DNA from: an uncultured bacterium
GTDB taxonomy: Bacteria > Patescibacteriota > Gracilibacteria > Absconditabacterales > Absconditicoccaceae
Assembly (NCBI GenBank): GCA_903904875.1
Contig: CAIVEC010000022.1
Location: forward strand, 1 to 36,432
Length of the DNA: 36,432 nucleotides
Reading direction: 5' to 3'
Below, piece after piece: positions 1,381 through 31,761 of the stretch. Numbering within the stretch: position 1 is the stretch's first letter; every line of letters begins with the position of its first letter. The notes beneath the pieces were generated by a model that did not search any database, was not told where the DNA came from, and saw only the letters and a program-made list of their open reading frames with translations. Made by a program: the position numbers and the translations under genes.

Positions 1381-1438
1381 ATACTTGAGACACAATAAAA
1401 ACTTGAAGTAGTGAAAGTTTTTATGATGTCGAAATTAT
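1381..1438 (+). repeat. Dyad element 1, copy a
   Basis: The outer arms are TTGAGAC and GTCGAAATTAT. The inner stem is a perfect ATAAAAACTT/AAGTTTTTAT hairpin. It closely matches the copies at 8038 and 31634. Confidence 0.75.
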
Positions 1439-1474
1439 GGTTTGCCAATTGAATATTTATTCATTTTGGCAACC

Positions 1475-1525
1475 ATATATTCTTCAATCAAAAATATTAA
1501 AACATATTTTTGAAGGAGAATATAT
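1475..1525. repeat. Dyad element 2, copy a
   Basis: The arms begin ATATATTC and end GAATATAT around TTCAATCAAAAATA and ATATTTTTGAAGGA. A second copy lies at 21859-21908, where the eighth base pair is changed from C-G to A-T on both arms. This compensatory change suggests that the hairpin itself is conserved. Confidence 0.7.
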
Positions 1526-1595
1526 ACCGACGATTTTTGACGCATAAAGTACAAGTATCAGCGAAGTAATTTATGAGGTCGAAATCAATCGGTAT
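1524..1595. repeat. Dyad element 3, copy a
   Basis: A 72-base inverted repeat with arms ATACCGACGATTTTTGAC and GTCGAAATCAATCGGTAT and a shared interior (AAAGTAC, then GAAGTAATTTATGA). A 73-base copy lies at 31689-31761. Confidence 0.7.
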
Positions 1596-1634
1596 GAAAT
1601 ATATTTCTGATCAGAATTAGACGATAAGTTTTTC

Positions 1635-1695
1635 ATAATTGAGACGCCTTGAAAATCTGATTATTTTTTGAGGATTTTCGAACGTCGAAATTATA
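1635..1695. repeat. Dyad element 1, copy b
   Basis: The outer arms are ATAATTGAGACGCC and AACGTCGAAATTATA. The inner stem is GAAAATC/GATTTTC, unrelated in sequence to the inner stem of the other copies. The outer arms are conserved while the inner stem changes but still pairs. Confidence 0.7.
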
Positions 1696-1800
1696 CTTTC
1701 TACAACAATAATTACTCGTTATACTTCGTAATTATTTGAGTAGAAAGTATATCACGTGCGGAAAAAAATTCACATATAGACATCGGTTTTTCCATGTATT

Positions 1801-1839: not shown

Positions 1840-3246
1840 TTAAAAATAAATTGTTTTATCGCCTATCAAAATCCGACAGGCACCGGTATATACATTGAAA
1901 TAGATAAGAATCCGTTGACCGGCTTTATCGTACACGGCGATGAATGCATCGCCTTGAATAATTTTGTATCGATTTGCTTGGTCGGTCTGTTGATAGACAG
2001 CTTGTTGCTGTCTGATAGCGGATTCTTTGAGGGTGGTGTACTTTTTATCAATCAAATATTTATATAATATTCCCTTTTGCGTTTGGATTTCTTCCACTAA
2101 GATTTTTGTGGTATCGAAAGCGGGATAATTAAATTTAAATTCATTGATTGATTGAAGATAATAGTACGCTCCTATCTGAACTTCTGCGTAATAGACATCG
2201 AACTTATGATTTTTCAAAGCAGAGTCGATGGCAATCAACTTCACATTACGTAAGGAGTCATATTTATCTTTATTTCCGAGAAAAACAATCGGTACAATTA
2301 CACTATCTTTGGGAAGAATATGTGGCTTAATATGCGCCAATTTCGTAGTATCCCTCGGATGTAATTTTGGAACTATATGTCCCCAGTAGATATCATCGCC
2401 GCCGGCACCGCCAGGACGAGAAGAAGAGAGGAAAAACATCGAATCACAGTTCATGAACCAGCGATCATCGACAGCAGAATTGATAGGTAATGCCTGTGGT
2501 TTTAACCATTGTCCATCCTTGTCTAGTGTACTGGAGAAGATATCATATCCTCCCTTTCCACCTGAACCATTGGAACTGAAATACAAAGTTTTTTTATCTG
2601 ATCCAAAACACACATCAACCTCATCACCGGATGTATTGATCATATCAAGCGGAACAAAAATTATATACTGACCGGCATCATTTTTACGCGACCAATACAA
2701 ATCATGTTCGCCACGTCCGCCAGGGCGTTCACTCGATATCACCATAATTCCATTCGCTTCGGCAACACTTTGTTCATGCGAATCTGAATTTACAGGAGGC
2801 TTCATCTGTCTAGGTGTAGACCAATGTTTCTTTCCACGTGTTGAACAATAAAGATCTCCATTGCCAAACGTTTTGTAGGTAAACAACTTCGGGCCTTCAG
2901 AAGAAAAACCTGCTAAAGCGGTATAGTCATCACTATTGAAAAAATAAAATTTCTTTGGTGGCGACCACACGCTATCAATAAAATGAGTAGTATAAATATT
3001 CTCATTAAATTGAAGATCCGCTTCATCGGTGTTCCGGTTTTTCCTAGAGGATGAAAAGTAGAGCATTCCATCGATGTAGATGGGTGAGTAATCATCTTTG
3101 GCACTATTAACATTGAGGGATTGAATAACTAAACTATCATTCTCTCCCAAAGTCTGCCAAGATGTGCTAGGTTTCTTTTGCCCGAAAAGGGTGGTAGTGG
3201 TCATCATACAGACAACCACCACCAAGAGAGAAATCAGTTTTTTCAT
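1840..3246 (-). CDS. PD40 beta-propeller protein with SPOR-like C-terminus (T9SS/gliding-associated)
   Basis: A 468-residue secreted protein. A signal peptide (residues 1-22, ending TTTTLFG) is followed by WD40-like PD40 repeats with the typical YFSS, ISSERPGG, LYFSSNG and FLSSSRPGG turns, each before a D-L/I-Y or D-I-F/Y motif (about residues 50-290). After a linker, residues 350-460 (YAEVQIGAYY, then AFIAVYDKAGQRI) resemble the SPOR-like module that follows PD40 repeats in many Bacteroidota proteins. The OmpA domain of PorE/SprE-type proteins is not present. It is the third gene of an operon with a PorP/SprF protein, overlapping that gene by four bases (ATGA). In Bacteroidota, such proteins sit at the inner face of the outer membrane next to PorP/SprF. 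About thirty glycines are all GGN; there is no in-frame TGA, unlike the genes from 8143 on. Confidence 0.8.
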   Translation of the reverse strand: MKKLISLLVVVVCMMTTTTLFGQKKPSTSWQTLGENDSLVIQSLNVNSAKDDYSPIYIDGMLYFSSSRKNRNTDEADLQFNENIYTTHFIDSVWSPPKKFYFFNSDDYTALAGFSSEGPKLFTYKTFGNGDLYCSTRGKKHWSTPRQMKPPVNSDSHEQSVAEANGIMVISSERPGGRGEHDLYWSRKNDAGQYIIFVPLDMINTSGDEVDVCFGSDKKTLYFSSNGSGGKGGYDIFSSTLDKDGQWLKPQALPINSAVDDRWFMNCDSMFFLSSSRPGGAGGDDIYWGHIVPKLHPRDTTKLAHIKPHILPKDSVIVPIVFLGNKDKYDSLRNVKLIAIDSALKNHKFDVYYAEVQIGAYYYLQSINEFKFNYPAFDTTKILVEEIQTQKGILYKYLIDKKYTTLKESAIRQQQAVYQQTDQANRYKIIQGDAFIAVYDKAGQRILIYFNVYTGACRILIGDKTIYF

Positions 3247-4160
3247 TTACTAGATCTCCCTTCGTTGAATATTTTTCTTATAAATACAGAGTTATTAACG
3301 GCTTTGTAGGTGTAGGCAGTTGCGTCAACCCATGATCCATAGGTACACAAATACCCGAAGGACCAGGACTGAGCAGTTACGCCCACATCAAATTTCAAAG
3401 CGCCAATACTGCGGTAGCCGACACCAAACCAGAACATTTTATTATACTTGAGATCAACACCTGCCTCCCATGCGTAGGCTTTTTCGCTCGCGAAAACTCC
3501 AGCGCCTGAAGGCTCTAAACCAAATTTTTCTCCCAAGTTGAAGGTATACGCTCCTACGAAATAATAGGTGCGCTGTCGGGCATTGTTCCATGTAGGATTA
3601 AGAAACGCATTCTTGTTTTCCAATAATTGATAGGACGACAAGCCAATATAATATTTGTCCTCGCGCAGAAATGCGAGTCCGGCACTGGCATTGCCATTTG
3701 GTTGAAATTGAGAAACATTACTTAATCCAGGATCATTAGGATCAATCACAATCGCATCATTGCCAGAAAACTTATCCTGCATAAAATGGCCTGCCAGAAA
3801 AAAAGATAGTTTATCACCTTTTTCTTTGGAAAGAAATACCCGATAGATAAATGCTAATTGGGCATCTAAATGCATGGATAAACCAGCTTGTTCGCGATCT
3901 AATTTAAATCCGATACCGACACCATCTGAAATGAAACCACTAGCTAAAATGGTGCCTTGGTTAGGATGACGATTGAATCCGTCGAGACGAGTACCTGCCA
4001 TGAAAGTAGCGGTGGGTACTGCGTTCATAGACATAAGTGCCATATTATGCACTTGTGGTGCCTTATGAAACCAAGGATTGATTCCCTGTCCCACTTGCAT
4101 TTGTGCTACGCTGGTGCTGATCATCCCGATCAACAAAACAGCAATTATATTTTTTTTCAT
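3243..4160 (-). CDS. PorP/SprF-family outer membrane beta-barrel protein
   Basis: A 305-residue protein with a signal peptide (cleavage near STSVA-QMQ). It has the PorP/SprF layout: an early block of MALMSMNAVPTATFMAGTR type, repeated aromatic beta-strands (YYIGLSSYQLLENK, YYFVGAYTFNLGEKFGLEPS) and strand-rich ends (FWFGVGYRS, WSFGYLCTYG). In Bacteroidota this family helps anchor SprB-type adhesins at the surface and is coded beside them, as here. The gene ends in TGA, which overlaps the ATG of the next gene (ATGA). If the cell reads UGA as glycine, translation would continue out of frame through the next gene for about 36 codons to a TAG. All its glycines are GGN. Both facts point to a donor with the standard code. 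Confidence 0.85.
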   Translation of the reverse strand: MKKNIIAVLLIGMISTSVAQMQVGQGINPWFHKAPQVHNMALMSMNAVPTATFMAGTRLDGFNRHPNQGTILASGFISDGVGIGFKLDREQAGLSMHLDAQLAFIYRVFLSKEKGDKLSFFLAGHFMQDKFSGNDAIVIDPNDPGLSNVSQFQPNGNASAGLAFLREDKYYIGLSSYQLLENKNAFLNPTWNNARQRTYYFVGAYTFNLGEKFGLEPSGAGVFASEKAYAWEAGVDLKYNKMFWFGVGYRSIGALKFDVGVTAQSWSFGYLCTYGSWVDATAYTYKAVNNSVFIRKIFNEGRSSK

Positions 4161-4166
4161 AGCTGA

Positions 4167-7100
4167 TTAATATTTGATATCAATACTCGATTTGAAGATA
4201 TACTCTTTGCCGTTTTCCGCTACACGAATATAATAATAATAAACGGTATTGGCAGCGGCTTTGTTATCAAGCGGATTCCAGGTGAAATTACAGTCCGAAG
4301 ACTCAAAAACTTTTTCACCCCAATCCGTAAAGATCTTTACGAGAAATTCCTGAAACTCACATCCACCCTGTACAGCGAAGACATCATTATAGCCGTCTCC
4401 ATTTGCTGTTACAAGATTTGGAATCAAAATACAATCATCCGGACCCTTACCCACATACAGTGAGTCCGTCGCCGAACAACCATACTGATTGATCAGAATT
4501 CCTACATAAAAACCCGAAGGAAGATTACCGATAGCTTGACCTGGTGAAACAGAATCGACCAGCACACCCAACGAATCATAGAGGTAAAAGGTATTGATGA
4601 ACGGAGACCAGTAAATGTCTTCCGTATGCAACACAACTTGTCCGTCATCTGATTGCTGGCAAGAAGTGCTCGTTATCGTGGGAAAGAATTTTATCCACTC
4701 ATACGGCTCTTCGACTTCATAGGTTTCATAAATAATACATCCAAGCGCATCGGTAATAGTTACATTATACATACCCGCGGGTATGTTAGTTATAGTTGAA
4801 GTTGTCATTCCGTTATTCCACAAAAAAGTATATGGACCCGTACCACCATGAACAGCGTCCAAGATGATTGAGCCTGTATTGTCGCCTTTGCAGATCACCG
4901 GAACAATATTAACCGTTCCTACAGTTATTGGTAATGGTTGTTGAAGTACTAAAGTAAACGTAGTATCACAACCGGTTGAAGATATTATTGTTACAGAATA
5001 ATTACCAGCGGAAAGTCCTGAAATAAATGGGACAGGAACAGTGTCGGTAGAGATAGTGTCTCCGGTTGAGAATATTACGGTATAAGGAGCATTAGGTCCA
5101 GTAATAGTAATGTACCAGGAACCAGTGCTTCCATTATTACAATATATCACATTAACCGAATCTTTGATAATTGTCGGCGCAGGTTGTGTAAGTGTAAAAC
5201 TCATCTGAGCAAAACACCCGACAGAATCCATAACCGTAATTTGATAAACCCCAGCAGGCACATTGATGATATCCTCAGTCACAGCAAAAACGTTTCCGTT
5301 GTGCAACCAAGTATATTGCAGTGGACCTTTTCCACCACCAGTAGTGATATAAATAGCACCATCGTTTCCGCCATTGCAGTGAATATTATTAAGCGAATCT
5401 AAGGTGATAGTGATTGCAGGTGGTTGAGTGATAGTTGCTGACGCGGTTATTGAACATCCTACAGAATCAGTTACGGTAAGCGTATATGTTCCGAAACCTA
5501 CACCAGTCATATACGGTGTTGTTGCACCGTTCGACCATTGATAACTCAGAGGACCAGTCCCGCCAGAATAAAAAGCTTCGGCGTGTCCCGTAGTGGTAGC
5601 ATTACAAAGAACATTTTCTGAAATCACATAACCTTGTAAGGGCATCAATGGTTCAATGCGAATAGTTCCTGTAACAGAGCATACACTATCATCACTGACG
5701 GTGTACGTATAATCACCCACCGCTAAACCAGTGATGGTGAAAGCAGTTGATGTGAATCCACCAGGACCCGTCCACGTGATGTGGTAGCCTGGCATAGGAT
5801 TACCTCCGGAAGCGGAAATCGCGATGCTTCCATTGTGATCACCATAACAGATATTATTAGTAACAACTTCATTCACAACAAGCGGCGTAGCAGATTGATT
5901 GATAGTAAAAGTATAATATGCCGAACATCCTGTAGCATTGTCAGTAATAGTAATGGTATATGTTCCTGCGATAAAACTCGTCGTAGCACTGAATACGGAA
6001 TCGTTAGATGTAAATGATCCTGTATTATACAGAGAACTCCAACTGTACGTAAAGTACACACCAGGAGCGGCATTTGTAGCTTGCACCGTTACGCTTCCTG
6101 TTGCTCCATTACACACGTAAGGAACAAGTGTTGCAGTAAACGGAATAGTAACCAAATTAGGAATCACCAGCGTGTCTATATATACACAGCCGTTTGCATC
6201 AGTAATGAGTAATGCATACGTTCCTCCACGGACATTCACTAAATTTTGAGTCGTGTACGTTGAATCAAAATTTATTTCGTGCCACAAGAAAGTGTAGGGG
6301 AAAACTCCACCACCAACGACAATCGAGATAGCGCCGTCATTATGGCCATCACACGAACTTGGTGTGATAGTTGGCACCATAGTGATCGCAAGTGGTTCGC
6401 TAACAGCAACTGAAGCAGTTATAGTGCAACCGTTTAGATCAGTTACTGTCACCGTATAGACTCCCATTGGAAGATCGGTAAGTGTTTGAAGAGTAGAACC
6501 GTTTGACCATGCATATGTATATATATTACCGACTCCACCACTAGCAGTTGCACTTACAGAACCATCGTTTCCACCATTACACGTAACGTTGTTTAATACC
6601 GTCGTATGCACATGGATAGGTGTTGATGGCCCGGTGATGATAACTGAAGCGGTAGTAGTGCATGCATTTCCATCAGTCACGGTTACAGTGTACGTCCCAG
6701 CAGGTAAATTAATGATTGTTGCGGTAACTCCACCGTTCGACCATGCATAGCTGTAAGGAGCGCTTCCACCACTTGCGTTAGCGGTTGCAGTACCATCACT
6801 AAAGCCGAAACAATTTATGTTGGTTGAAGTAATAGTTACCTGCAAAGGGAGCAAGGGTTGAGTGATAATAACTGAAGTGCTAGTAGTACAACCGTTTGCA
6901 TCAGTAACCGTCAGTGTATATGTACCAGCAGGCAAATTAGAAATGGTAGGCGTGATTTCGCCAGTTGGTGCCCACAAATAATTCAAACTTGGAACCCCAC
7001 CACTACCTGTAGCAGTTATCGTTCCATTATTTCCACCGAAACAACTTACATTAGTGGAAACCGTAGATACAGAAACAGCAAATGCTGGTTCTACAATTAC

Positions 7101-7817
7101 AATAGTTTGGATCTGAATACATCCGTTTGCATCTGTCACCGTAACTTGGTAATTACCAGCAGGTACGTTTGTAATAGCTGAAGTGGTAGCGCCAGTATTC
7201 CATTGATACGTATGAGCACCGGTTCCTCCAAAAGAGATAACTGAAGCTGCTCCGGTACTTGCACCGGTGCAAAGCACATCAGTTCTGCTTGCAATAACGG
7301 TGATAGGAAGTGGCGGTTCTGTAATAGTAACATTGTCAGTAGCAGTACACCCATTTCCATCAGTCACCGTGACCGTGTAATTTCCCGCAGTTAAGTTAAT
7401 GGTATTAGAAGTACCACTTCCATTCGACCAAGTATAGGTCAGAACACCAGTTCCGCCGACTCCTGAAGCGACCGCAGTTCCATTGTTTCCACCATTACAA
7501 CTTACGTTCGTGGAAACTATAGATACCGTCAAGGGCGGTGGATCAGGAAGATTCTGTGAATACACGACAGAAATCGACATTGCGTCAGTCACCGAAACAG
7601 AGTAAAGTCCGGCAGAGAGATTAGTGATGGTATTCGTCACTGCTCCTGTCGACCACAAGTAAGTATAAGGTCCGACTCCAAAACCTGGAACGACCGTCAA
7701 TTGACCGGTAGCATCGCCATTACAGAGAATGGGATTGTCAACGGTAATCTGTGCTTTAGTCACCCAAGAACAGGCGAGAAAAAACACGAACAATAATACA
7801 ATTTTTTTCGTTTTCAT
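4167..7817 (-). CDS. SprB-repeat adhesin with T9SS type B / gliding C-terminal domain
   Basis: A 1216-residue secreted protein. After a signal peptide (residues 1-22) come about fourteen SprB-type repeats of 70-80 residues. Each has a C-x-G-x-x-x-G start (NVSCNGGNNGT), a Y-x-W-S-N-G turn and a L-x-A-G-x-Y-T-V-T-V-T-D-x-x-G-C end. The last 90 residues (IPNLVTANGDGYNDVF, IFTDWGEKVFES, YYYYIRVAENGKEYIFKSSI) match the gliding-motility/type IX secretion C-terminal domain, type B. In Bacteroidota this would be exported by the type IX system and shown on the surface as an adhesin; no T9SS core genes (PorK-N, SprA) are in the window. Well over 100 glycines and not one TGA. First gene of the operon with the PorP/SprF-like and PD40 genes. 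Confidence 0.9.
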   Translation of the reverse strand: MKTKKIVLLFVFFLACSWVTKAQITVDNPILCNGDATGQLTVVPGFGVGPYTYLWSTGAVTNTITNLSAGLYSVSVTDAMSISVVYSQNLPDPPPLTVSIVSTNVSCNGGNNGTAVASGVGGTGVLTYTWSNGSGTSNTINLTAGNYTVTVTDGNGCTATDNVTITEPPLPITVIASRTDVLCTGASTGAASVISFGGTGAHTYQWNTGATTSAITNVPAGNYQVTVTDANGCIQIQTIVIVEPAFAVSVSTVSTNVSCFGGNNGTITATGSGGVPSLNYLWAPTGEITPTISNLPAGTYTLTVTDANGCTTSTSVIITQPLLPLQVTITSTNINCFGFSDGTATANASGGSAPYSYAWSNGGVTATIINLPAGTYTVTVTDGNACTTTASVIITGPSTPIHVHTTVLNNVTCNGGNDGSVSATASGGVGNIYTYAWSNGSTLQTLTDLPMGVYTVTVTDLNGCTITASVAVSEPLAITMVPTITPSSCDGHNDGAISIVVGGGVFPYTFLWHEINFDSTYTTQNLVNVRGGTYALLITDANGCVYIDTLVIPNLVTIPFTATLVPYVCNGATGSVTVQATNAAPGVYFTYSWSSLYNTGSFTSNDSVFSATTSFIAGTYTITITDNATGCSAYYTFTINQSATPLVVNEVVTNNICYGDHNGSIAISASGGNPMPGYHITWTGPGGFTSTAFTITGLAVGDYTYTVSDDSVCSVTGTIRIEPLMPLQGYVISENVLCNATTTGHAEAFYSGGTGPLSYQWSNGATTPYMTGVGFGTYTLTVTDSVGCSITASATITQPPAITITLDSLNNIHCNGGNDGAIYITTGGGKGPLQYTWLHNGNVFAVTEDIINVPAGVYQITVMDSVGCFAQMSFTLTQPAPTIIKDSVNVIYCNNGSTGSWYITITGPNAPYTVIFSTGDTISTDTVPVPFISGLSAGNYSVTIISSTGCDTTFTLVLQQPLPITVGTVNIVPVICKGDNTGSIILDAVHGGTGPYTFLWNNGMTTSTITNIPAGMYNVTITDALGCIIYETYEVEEPYEWIKFFPTITSTSCQQSDDGQVVLHTEDIYWSPFINTFYLYDSLGVLVDSVSPGQAIGNLPSGFYVGILINQYGCSATDSLYVGKGPDDCILIPNLVTANGDGYNDVFAVQGGCEFQEFLVKIFTDWGEKVFESSDCNFTWNPLDNKAAANTVYYYYIRVAENGKEYIFKSSIDIKY

Positions 7818-8014: not shown

Positions 8015-8043
8015 TTGACAAATAAGAGTTTTTAGAGTATAAT
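8015..8043 (+). promoter_or_regulatory. Perfect consensus sigma70 promoter
   Basis: TTGACA (8015-8020), a 17-base spacer and TATAAT (8038-8043) match the consensus at all twelve positions. The start point would be near 8050, 93 bases before the ATG at 8143. The TATAAT is also the left arm of dyad element 1 (8038-8098), so the transcript would begin with that element's inner hairpin. Confidence 0.85.
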
Positions 8044-8098
8044 TGAGATGCAATAAAAACTTGAATCTCTTTGAAAGTTTTTATACAGCGAAATTATA
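8038..8098 (+). repeat. Dyad element 1, copy c (fused to a promoter)
   Basis: The outer arms are TATAATTGAGATGC and GCGAAATTATA. The inner stem is ATAAAAACTT/AAGTTTTTAT, as in copies a and d. The right arm runs into a short hairpin, TATACC-TTTA-GGTATA (8095-8110), which looks like element 3 with its interior removed. Confidence 0.75.
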
Positions 8099-8142
8099 CC
8101 TTTAGGTATACTTAGTGTAAGCTTTTATGCTTAAGCAAGGAT

Positions 8143-9642
8143 ATGCACAAAAAGCTCATCATCACAATAAGCGTCATCTTAGGAGCACTCTATGCACTGG
8201 GAAATGTTTTTTCTATCAATTTATTTTTTCCCAACCTCAACAACCAGTCATTGCAAGATAAATTTTCTCTTGTTCATTTTATGGCACCAGGAAATAATTT
8301 CGGATGAAGCATATTCCGGTTAGCTACGAAATCGGTATGACCAAGAGTAATTAATACTCCTTCCGGTGATACGAAAACATGCACCAAATTAGTCAGAGGA
8401 TTATATTTCAATTCACAGAGAGGAAAAAGGCTACGACCGTTGGATAGCGATACGCTTACATTATTACAGCAACAGAATAGTTGATATAATAACCTTCAGA
8501 TGACATGAGGACTGTATACGACATGCGGTTCTGGATACGGCATTTTCGGATATATAGAATACACGCGATGAGGAGTAGTTTCAAAGATAGCAGCAGGAAC
8601 AAAATTAGATTACAACAATAATAGAATAATTGATTCTATGGCGAATAGTTTCCAATATTTTGACAATAAAGTTCCGTTGGGATACATCTACGATAGTAAT
8701 GGAGGGATAGGATATGTCGGAGGATATCTGACCGGTCATGATGCCCTGATAAGTTTTTTGAATAGTTGAGGATCGATAAATAGCGGATTCATGTATTCCT
8801 GAGACACTATCATTTCTCACGATCCCGGCCGGACGACAACGATAGAGAGTTGAAATAACGCAATGCAGACGATGCGGAATCTTATCATCCAATGAAGCGT
8901 AGGATTGTCCAAATCCATCGATGAAAAAGAAAGGATTTCGCTTCTCGGTAATTTCCAAAACAAAACAGTCATCTACAATGGAAGCGATATCAATTCATCG
9001 ACAGTGATAAATTTTGCAAAACAGAAAGCGCAAGAACTCTGTCAAGGCAAAGAAATTAATCTGCCGATATCAACCGATGAAACGATACTGTGTTACGAAA
9101 ATACTGATTTAAATATCGATTTGACTCAACCGACAACATATGAGAATAAAACCATTATCGTAAAAAGCGGTAACGTTATTTTACAAGGTGGAATGCAAGA
9201 AATTTCTCCATCACTGGATCTCTTTATAGACAAAGGAATACTTTATTTACCGGATCCATTCACCACACGACAGACATTCAATGAACAATGATTTCCAGAG
9301 ACAAGTGGAGTAATTGCATGACTCTATCTCAAAGGAAACTTCATCATCAACGGACTCATACTATGATGAACAACAGGATTCAACCATAAACTTCATCTCC
9401 AAGGAAAAATAACGACACTTAACACTCCACTCACTCCGAACCCAGGAAGAACATGACAGATTGAAAATATGTTTGGGTGATCTCTGTATGATAACTTCAT
9501 CAATCTCCAAAATGTATTCGTACGAACATGCGGATTTGATGGAACAGGCAGCGATGGCTCACAATGTATGACAGGGAATATTATTTCCAGTACACCGCTC
9601 GTTATCTTGAACGGAAATTATCCTTCAAATATATTACAATAA
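8143..9642 (+). CDS. Secreted protein of unknown function, UGA-rich
   Basis: A 499-residue protein read only when TGA is glycine; about fifteen in-frame TGA codons, including two TGA TGA/TGA GGA runs that fit turn-rich sequence. The N-terminus (MHKKLIITISVILGALYALG) is a signal peptide or membrane anchor. The rest is rich in G, N, S and T and probably beta. Residues 255-385 carry ordered strands (NKTVIYNGSDINSSTVINFA, KTIIVKSGNVILQGG), and the last 100 (GNFIINGLIL, NLQNVFVRTCGFDG) look like beta-helix or pilin-like surface protein. No family is recognised. The start is the first ATG after the consensus promoter; the stop TAA overlaps the start of the bidirectional terminator. Codon use differs sharply from the TGA-free operon just to its left. 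Confidence 0.8.
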
Positions 9643-12925: not shown

Positions 12926-12973
12926 TAAAATAAGATACAGAAAGTTCCACAAAGAACTTTCACATCGTTTCTA
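12926..12973 (-). repeat. Dyad element 1, copy e, upstream of the PBP gene
   Basis: On the minus strand it reads TAGAAACGATG, the stem GAAAGTTC/GAACTTTC with a TTTGTG loop, then GTATCTTATTTTATA. The ATG lies 19 bases beyond its end. The layout matches the copy at 36396-36432 (loop TTGTG, then GCGTCTTATTTTA, then ATG). Confidence 0.6.
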
Positions 12974-21421: not shown

Positions 21422-21836
21422 CATACTGCTCATTGCAAGCTCGGCTTTCTTTATAGGACTCGATATGTTGTCCAAATATTTTTTCTATAATATGAAATAT
21501 CTGGAACATACTTCACTGATTCGACCGGTATTGAATACAGGAATCTCCCGATCACTGCCCGTACCGTTTATCTTGATTCTGGCAATAAGCATAATTGGAA
21601 TCTGAGCATTCATCCGGTTGTTCGCGATAAAGAAAATCAATCGGTTTATCACCGCCTTTTTGATTGCAGGAACCGCAGGAAATTTGATTGACAGACTCAT
21701 CTACGGAGGCGTGAGAGATTTCATCAATGTGGGAATATTCAACTTCCCTATCTTCAACTTCGCAGACATAATGCTGAGTATCGGAGTAGCTGTACGAATT
21801 ATAGTTCAACTGACAAATAATTCCGAAAAAAAATAA
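21405..21836 (+). CDS. lspA: Lipoprotein signal peptidase (LspA)
   Basis: A 143-residue, four-segment membrane aspartyl protease that cuts lipoprotein signal peptides. Motifs: LDMLSKYFF (family DxxSK), NTGISRS (family NxGxAFS), GTAGNLIDRLIYGGVRDFI with the first catalytic Asp, and FNFADIMLSIG with the second. A TGA codes for glycine in the second membrane segment (after SIIGI). The first of two adjacent ATG codons is chosen; it lies within the der 3' end. With the Lgt-like protein at 24845 it suggests that lipoproteins are processed. Confidence 0.95.
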
Positions 21837-21858
21837 GGAATTTTTGTATCGTTGAACT

Positions 21859-21908
21859 ATATATTATTCAATCAAAAATAAGAAAAATATTTTTGAAGGA
21901 TAATATAT
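21859..21908. repeat. Dyad element 2, copy b
   Basis: Same hairpin as 1475-1525, here with arms ATATATTA and TAATATAT and further pairing AACTA/TAGTT outside. It lies in the lspA-ssb gap, followed by five CGTTT-type words (21961-21995) that form a weak hairpin before a T run, a possible lspA terminator. Confidence 0.7.
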
Positions 21909-30099: not shown

Positions 30100-30285
30100 A
30101 TACAAGGAAGATACTATGATTTAAAGATAAAAATACAAGAGAAATCGACAAAAAAACAAACCATAAATATATTCTAATTAAAATGTCAACCTTAAGTGAT
30201 TTAGACATACATTTTATTGTCACAAATTGTCCACTTATTCGTATATATAGGTGTAAGAATGCTATATTTCACAAATTATTGGATT

Positions 30286-31626
30286 ATGAAACTTCAAGAA
30301 TTCTTCGACACACAAAAACATACCAACTTCACTGATGTAGATAAATTAGATCTCTATCAGAATTTTTTGTATAAGAAGACAAAAAAGACGACAATCAAGA
30401 GATCATCATTTGTCCATGCAAAATATTTCATCTATAGCATGATTTTTGTTATCTTGATGATCGGAGTCTATGGAGTATATTTTATAAACAACAACAATCT
30501 GCAAGATTATAACTGGTTCGCTATCAGGTCAAATATTACCAATACCGCACAAGCGGATTATATAGCGCAAGTGATAGATTTCAACGGTAACTTCTTCATC
30601 GAACACAATGGCGTCTTAGTCCAGACCAATAATATCGGAAACGGCGACACTATCTTGCTCAAGGAATGAGCACAATTAGTCTTTGAAATCAATAGCGGCA
30701 CCCAGTCCAAAATCATTGGACCGGCGAAATTAACCATCCAAAAAACTCATACAGACAATTATAAGCTTAATCTGATCTATGGAAACTTCATTCAGATGGA
30801 AGGAAACGAACGGAAAACACAGACGATCGAACTCGCCATCAACGATCTTACCGTCAAACAAGAAGATAAATCCAAACCGCTCAACTTCAAATTCATAAAA
30901 AACGGTAGCAATCAGATATTCCAGAACAATGGAGCGAACATCATCGTCACCAAAAGCAATGGAGAAGATAAGACGACTACCATAAGTAATAATCAGGTGG
31001 TAGCCATCCAAAGCAACGACATCAAGATATTCGCAAATATCGACACCTTCACCAAAGCAGTCCAAGAAAAAAATATTTCTCAGACATTCTCGTTAGCAGA
31101 AGCAACAAATTCAGGAACTGTGGCTTCAGGAACAGCTGTCAAGGAAGTAACCGCATTGCTTAGCTTGTTAAATACTCCGCAAATCACAGAAAGCAATCAA
31201 GAAATCACCAAGAATATCTCTTCGACATTAAGCGATGAAAAAAAGATTTTAGATCCAAGCCAAGATGAGCAAGTAAATTCTATCCTTTATGAATGATTCT
31301 TCACTCCAGAACTCAAAGACATAGAAACAAGTTTTATAGCAGGAGATGGAGGCGCTTTTGATAGCGCATATACCAAAATAGAAAAAAGTATCCAAACTCT
31401 CTATCAGAGTTTTGGCATGACATATACTAAACTCTCAGGAGATCCGACTCAGAAGCTTCAAGGGTTGAAATCAGCTATCGTAAGCTTAAGAGAGAAAATC
31501 ACTGCTGAATATACTATTCCGCCAAAATACATTGAAAGCCTTCAAACGATAGAGAAATGAATAAGCAATATCATCGTAAAAGGATATGGAAGTAGTTCTG
31601 TACAAGATGCACCATCAGAACAATAA
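30286..31626 (+). CDS. FecR-like membrane-anchored protein
   Basis: A 446-residue protein: cytosolic 1-45, one membrane segment (about 46-68, FIYSMIFVILMIGVYGVYFI), then a FecR-like domain (about 85-170; YIAQVIDFNGNFFIEHNGVLVQ, GNGDTILLKEGAQLVF, KIIGPAKLTI, NLIYGNFIQM). The rest is threonine- and serine-rich, with a coiled-coil-like end. FecR domains are periplasmic or surface folds found in iron-signal regulators and in other wall proteins; here no sigma factor is near. TGA codes for at least three glycines. The ATG at 30286 is preferred over upstream starts. Partner: the similar protein at 32120. Confidence 0.8.
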
Positions 31627-31633
31627 GAGATTC

Positions 31634-31691
31634 TAATTGAGACACAATAAAAACTTAAAGTATTGAAAGTCTTTATAATGTCGAAATTATA
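31634..31691 (+). repeat. Dyad element 1, copy d
   Basis: TAATTGAGACACAATAAAAA start and GTCGAAATTATA end; the interior stem is as in copies a and c. It runs directly into element 3 copy b (overlap ATA). Confidence 0.75.
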
Positions 31692-31761
31692 CCGGCGATT
31701 TTTGATACAGAAAGTACGAACCCAAGTGAAGTAATTTATGATTTCAAAAACAAATCGGTAT
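31689..31761. repeat. Dyad element 3, copy b
   Basis: Arms ATACCGGCGATTTTTGA and TCAAAAACAAATCGGTAT; matches 1524-1595 in arms and interior. The order element 1 then element 3 is the same at both sites. Confidence 0.7.

Follow-up and report, generated by a model that had tools for sequence, protein, structure and literature searches.

Palindromic elements that invade genes are best known from Rickettsia, where the Rickettsia palindromic elements (RPE; Ogata et al. 2000, 2002) are small, lie between genes and also in frame inside unrelated protein genes, and have no known transposase (PMC10969869). In pneumococci, the BOX, RUP and SPRITE elements form clusters in which elements are inserted into one another (PMC10969869), and genes hit by the QMITEs of Coxiella gain in-frame residues or a stop codon (PMC5896051). 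In open-access full text, no report was found of in-frame palindromic elements in SR1 bacteria or in other members of the candidate phyla radiation. The locus described here is a chain of palindromes at positions 1382-1752 of the window, the whole stretch of 36,432 nucleotides analysed, which is contig C22 of the host genome. With a probability of roughly 0.8, this chain is an accumulation of small palindromic elements that are mobile but not autonomous, belong specifically to an SR1/Gracilibacteria-type lineage and insert at TA or T-rich sites.

The chain and its relatives in the window

At least five abutting dyads had been claimed for these 370 bases. Six are present, namely two E1, one E2-type palindrome, one E4, one E3 and one further palindrome, in the order E1, E2-type dyad, E4, E3, short gap, second E1 and another dyad, and the abutment is broken by the gap at about 1598-1635 (Table 1). 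Neighbouring dyads do share arm ends as originally described, TA or TAT being common to both at the junctions, and the view that this is more than random AT-rich folding agrees with the predicted energy of the single-stranded DNA of 1382-1752, which is -64.3 kcal/mol, whereas shuffled sequences give -30.3 +/- 3.8 (z = -8.9). At the C11 locus given in Table 1 the order of the first three modules is kept, with E2 and E4 together 96% identical to those of the chain. A search of the window against Rfam at the gathering score returned only LSU rRNA and two tRNAs, and the chain matches no known RNA family.

Most of the recurrences listed in the original prediction stand, including two of E1 (8040 and 31634), that of its element 2 (E4 here) and that of its element 3 (E3 here). 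The second E1 inside the chain, found with covariance model R1, is additional to them. Two E1 copies proposed at 12926 and 36396 are not supported, as they reach only 9.8 and 4.3 bits by R1 with filters off and the latter overruns the contig end. The short palindrome behind the 8040 copy had been taken for an internally deleted E3, and similar deleted E3s, such as TACCGAGACAATCGGTA, indeed adjoin several other E1 copies.

Table 1. Palindromic modules and a predicted promoter in the window
Feature	Position	Strand	Evidence
E1 hairpin, copy 1 (TACTTGAGACACAAT...ATGATGTCGAAATTAT)	1382-1438	+	R1 76.7 bits, E 2.2e-15
E2-type palindrome GGTTTGCCAAT...TTGGCAACC, adjoins E1	1437-1475	+	sequence; E1-E2-E4 order recurs at host C11:58632-58723
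E4 palindrome ATATATTCTTCAATCAAAAA...TTTTTGAAGGAGAATATAT	1473-1528	+	>20 copies in host genome, mostly away from E1
E3 palindrome TATACCGACGATTTTTGACGCATAAAGTAC...GTCGAAATCAATCGGTAT	1526-1596	+	12 matches in host genome, E < 0.01
E1 hairpin, copy 2	1636-1694	+	R1 63.5 bits, E 2.9e-12
Further palindrome ATACTTTCTAC...GTAGAAAGTAT, adjoins E1 copy 2	1694-1752	+	12-bp closing stem in DNA fold
Predicted promoter TTGACA-N17-TATAAT of gene 8143-9642	8016-8043, +/- 1-2 bases	+	sequence, spacing test
E1 hairpin at -10 box of gene 8143-9642	8040-8097	+	R1 66.8 bits, E 5e-13
Mini-E3 TATACCTTTAGGTATA, adjoins E1	8095-8112	+	sequence; comparable mini-E3s behind other E1 copies
E2-like palindrome TATAGTTCAACTG...GTTGAACTATA, ahead of E4	21800-21861	+	inverted repeat I11
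E4 palindrome without E1	21855-21908	+	89% identity, E 8.6e-14
E1 hairpin about 7 bp past stop of ORF 30217-31626	31634-31690	+	R1 74.3 bits, E 8e-15
E3 palindrome adjoining E1 (canonical E1-E3 unit)	31688-31761	+	92% identity to E3 query

The minus strand at 1840-7817 carries a Bacteroidota-type gliding/T9SS cluster that is open under the standard code and encodes a PD40 protein, PorP/SprF and a 1216-residue SprB-repeat protein with a CHU_C type IX sorting domain. In genome G008 only about 280 bp separate the end of the 23S gene from the orthologue of gene 8143, and the block thus looks like an insertion, more probably due to horizontal transfer than to misassembly. It is flanked by E1 copies on both sides.

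Structure and distribution of the E1 family

All genomes compared are metagenome or single-cell assemblies, and the host genome was covered by searches and by reading the regions around their hits. The host assembly (965,715 bases in 49 contigs, 87% complete) contains about 31 distinct E1 copies in its 0.97 Mb at E <= 1e-4 by R1, far beyond chance, which bears out the expectation of further copies across the genome. By the same model, E1 is present in 9 of 9 genomes of the genus, with 3 to 47 matches each, and in four further genomes of the family, inside which its occurrence is patchy, while 23 genomes from other families of the class gave no E1. Among 84,980 species genomes, the exact E1 pattern was met only in SR1/Gracilibacteria-type records and in a few MAGs whose names are unspecific or doubtful; it had no match in IMG/VR or in phage records, where a viral origin was sought. 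A short contig of a MAG labelled delta proteobacterium (CAIPVD010000181.1) also carries an E1 match and is probably mis-binned SR1 sequence. In-frame TGA codons in genes of the window, together with related records named candidate division SR1/Gracilibacteria, indicate that the host uses code 25, in which TGA is read as Gly.

The compiled set of 129 distinct copies has the form TANNT-GA-GACN-CA-AT..loop..AT-GA-NGTC-GA-ANNTA, in which the stems covary with their partners and both internal loops (GA/GA and CA/GA) are constant. In an alignment of 22 copies with a hand-written hairpin, 95.7% of cells were paired and 44 were compensatory, a result equalled by no shuffle. With about 124-128 copies aligned to the model, an alignment that leans to structure, 94.4% were paired and double-changed cells numbered 354 against 91 +/- 17 in shuffles, a value reached by 0 of 500. 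Reverse-strand scores are far lower, and the hairpin is therefore strand-asymmetric. The conservation of the internal loops alongside freely covarying stems suggests that an enzyme acting in trans may recognise the folded single strand and that the unit may move in this form.

A palindrome starting directly to the right of E1 is enriched relative to control positions (p = 6e-20). This partner may be E3, a mini-E3, a chain of E2, E4 and E5, or a unique short dyad such as TCCCGAGGGA, and the unit measures about 124-140 bp with E3 and about 69 bp where E3 is deleted. At one orthologous site of G000 and G002, E1 is retained and the neighbouring hairpin is different; E4 and E3 are also found without E1. 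The basic unit would accordingly consist of a conserved hairpin E1 of about 57 nt and an abutting hairpin (E3, deleted E3, or E2/E4/E5) joined through a shared TA, and insertion of such units beside existing ones could generate chains. A second module pair, independent of E1, was also seen, with E4 often behind an E2-like dyad that has a core of the AATAATTCCGAAATATAATGAGGAATTAT type (L190-L192, L198-L200, L202). A string resembling TTTTTGTCCTAACTTTGTCCATTTTTTTC recurs around several of the E1 copies and around other repeats (L098 767-4900 in G006, L138, L095).

Insertions in genes and positions at terminators and promoters

When TGA is read as Gly, E1 units lie in frame inside open reading frames whose orthologues in sister genomes are uninterrupted, and the families of the interrupted genes were confirmed by Pfam. 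In the PD-(D/E)XK nuclease of G001, an insert of about 42 codons (residues 191-231) is missing in eight genomes, and residues 1-190 and 232-400 of the G001 protein are contiguous in the orthologues. The LeuRS of G005 and G006 carries a 23-codon insert and reads KKYNSRHNESSKQ(S/G)ESFHDVEII(P/Q)RDNLPI there, against KYNLPI-like sequence elsewhere. The host rsmG has 45 codons inserted after codon 3 (MEK-45 aa-QRKELID versus MEKQRKELID), with a predicted insert-junction peptide of KADRGQRKELID when Gly is placed at TGA, and a PrsW-type protease of G001 has 43 (VTIF-43 aa-RNRYK versus VTIFFRNRYK), the G008 gene bearing a different insert at another position. Common to the insert peptides is the motif FHDVEI or FYDVE, behind which stands IP or a similar pair of residues. 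Further E1 copies, recognised by the open frame, lie in a glycosyltransferase gene and in a RAYT-like gene of G006. At the LeuRS junction (KYNLPI versus KYNSRHNESSKQSESFHDVEIIPRDNLPI) there is an apparent TA duplication, which is clean only at this gene, the junctions of the nuclease, rsmG and PrsW being ambiguous. In G006 the LeuRS gene (L147 4473-5672) also encodes a NUDIX domain behind the editing-domain match, in one reading frame, and beyond the insertion point LeuRS diverges strongly between sister species, as if recombining or domain-swapped.

Several of these frames are open only because TGA is Gly: the nuclease insert contains four such codons, that of rsmG three and the glycosyltransferase copy two, while those of LeuRS and of the G001 PrsW contain none. 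The recoding may therefore be part of the reason why units persist in genes as in-frame inserts of 23 to 45 codons, and loops tolerant of insertion would be more numerous where TGA is sense. A bolder reading takes the whole as a protein-invading palindromic system dependent on UGA = Gly, whose folded single strands, moved by an enzyme, enter post-terminator sites, -10 boxes and, in frame, conserved genes, and some of whose promoter copies were adopted as 5' hairpins; it is put forward tentatively and is rather less probable than its opposite.

Outside genes, the positions of E1 are also far from even. A T-rich left flank (>=5 T in six bases) precedes 49 of the 129 copies, against a background of 3.2% at TA and none at the inner end, and 36 of these 49 have a GC stem upstream, as in intrinsic terminators predicted from the sequence. 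The polarity is not strict, and a rule of one orientation only was rejected, as about seven units abut a terminator of the opposite strand with the outer end of their second hairpin. In 14 copies the TAAT of E1 completes a TATAAT box, always 16-17 bp from the -35 box of the predicted promoter, and wherever a gene could be called downstream (13 cases) it is co-directional. The 14 include the window copy at 8040: the final four bases of its TATAAT are the first four of E1, and the G008 orthologue has the promoter TTGACA-N17-TATAAT without E1. In some copies the ORF upstream takes its stop codon from the first three bases of E1 (TAA or TAG). Insertion would thus take place at TA or T-rich sites beside earlier units, past the T-tracts of terminators, at -10 boxes and stop codons and within ORFs, and selection would purge the harmful insertions, leaving as survivors those past terminators, in -10 boxes that were rebuilt, at the ends of genes and in loops that tolerate them. 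Of this picture, the dispersal of E1, the selection on its structure, its entry into sequence that already existed, the retention of reading frames and the uneven positions are shown by the data.

These positions may also be read as function. A unit of E1 and its partner would then be a structured functional RNA or regulatory element, a 5' UTR hairpin at promoters and a 3'-end element after terminators, selected for gene control and mobile only in the past. Some intergenic sites that are orthologous between species have E1 in each of them, with compensatory differences and no broken pairs (terminator-adjacent pairs were tested). The exact -35/-10 spacing of the 14 copies and the orientation bias at terminators also fit this explanation, as does the promoter of a TrmB-like regulator gene, which has an E1 in G001 and again in G008. 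A single role nevertheless fits poorly with the copies in LeuRS, the nuclease, rsmG and PrsW, with the patchy presence in sister genomes and with the exchanged neighbour hairpin, and an element behind an efficient terminator would hardly be transcribed. Regulation as the general explanation is thus considered unlikely. Within the mobile-element reading, a host role at some sites, or repeated insertion, is possible, because orthologous E1 pairs keep their pairing through compensatory changes. Other orthologous intergenic comparisons (e.g. C11:4392 and C2:7980) are too diverged for clean empty sites.

The two TrmB-like regulator genes with E1 at their -10 box (L113 4791 in G001; L071/L105 in G008) are apparently orthologous, and domestication is possible there. 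Tandem E1 arrays with a period of 70-72 nt were observed between a promoter and its gene, with four copies in G006 (L099 3514-3782, on G006:C63) and two in G001 (L097 4038-4168, on G001:C15).

Candidate enzymes and comparison with known systems

The junction TA, the TA duplication at LeuRS and the palindromic ends would suit a classical DDE-type MITE (IS630/Tc1-mariner-like, with TA duplication) whose transposase was lost or lies in unsampled sequence. Insertion of Correia-type MITEs creates promoters, as E1 appears to do. Against this origin, the IS630-type transposase (PF13358) was found in 0 of 9 genomes of the genus, the strong covariation and the constancy of the asymmetric internal loops speak for recognition of a folded strand and not of duplex ends, and T-tracts are met by the left end of E1 far more often than by the right. 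A DDE-type origin is therefore about as improbable as a purely regulatory one.

The REP-associated transposase suggested by the original prediction fares worse. REP/BIME elements moved by a RAYT (Y1) transposase would be consistent with a palindrome mosaic that is mostly extragenic and structure-based, and Y1 genes do exist in some E1-positive genomes. Y1/RAYT genes were, however, undetected in the E1-carrying host assembly (with its 87% completeness) and in G002, G004 and G007, and RAYT-like genes are also present in E1-negative genomes, their distribution not tracking that of E1. The Y1 genes inspected have no E1 directly adjoining and are flanked by other repeats (CACCCGGGTG and CGTCCCGCTGGGAC), and the RAYT-like gene of G006 mentioned above is interrupted by E1, not flanked by it. 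Mobilisation by RAYT is accordingly regarded as very improbable. Among the IS630 and Y1/RAYT types sought, no cognate transposase was found. The repeats at the Y1/RAYT-type genes are GC-rich palindromes of their own, distinct from E1 (CACCCGGGTG at L095, L102 and L111; CGTCCCGCTGGGAC at L101 and L104). The oriented, imperfect hairpins also brought integron attC sites to mind, which were set aside as attC core boxes were not seen by eye.

The claim of a modular family of mobile or regulatory palindromes was thus right in outline, in view of the further copies and of the in-frame inserts absent from sister orthologues; the in-gene insertions, the terminator and promoter positions and the dependence on TGA = Gly go beyond it. 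Gene-invading palindromes are here found in recoded bacteria, which raises the testable question of whether stop-codon reassignment makes genes more tolerant of selfish DNA. For LeuRS, RsmG and an intramembrane protease, the inserts also amount to naturally occurring insertion data. The E1 system offers a tractable case for finding the enzyme behind such elements.

Among described systems, E1 units behave as RPEs do, a kinship claimed for behaviour and not for sequence. Both lie between genes and also in frame within conserved genes, here those of the nuclease, LeuRS, RsmG and PrsW, whose orthologues lack the insert; both are of similar size (about 124-140 bp for E1-E3, roughly 100-150 bp for RPE) both occupy small-genome, host-associated bacteria, and neither has a known transposase. 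The sequences appear to differ, with no E1 match in the Rickettsia genomes of the collection, and in NCBIfam, which may not include RPE models, three host proteins matched no palindromic-element family. Unlike RPE, the E1 system has two abutting hairpins with a shared TA and forms multi-family chains, several of its frames need TGA = Gly, and it strongly prefers terminator T-tracts and -10 boxes. With BIME/REP-RAYT it shares mosaic palindromic arrays outside genes and a structure conserved with mismatches, but its hairpins are longer, it has in-frame gene copies and it shows no linkage to the Y1 genes present. TA ends and promoter formation upon insertion recall the TA-inserting MITEs (Correia/NEMIS, RUP), and the insertion of one element into another, in clusters, recalls pneumococcal BOX/RUP/SPRITE; E1 is set apart from both by a genus without IS630-type transposase, by folded-strand conservation and by repeated in-frame coding insertions. 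The QMITEs of Coxiella are alike in adding in-frame residues or stops, whereas their architecture and lineage differ and their host uses the standard genetic code.
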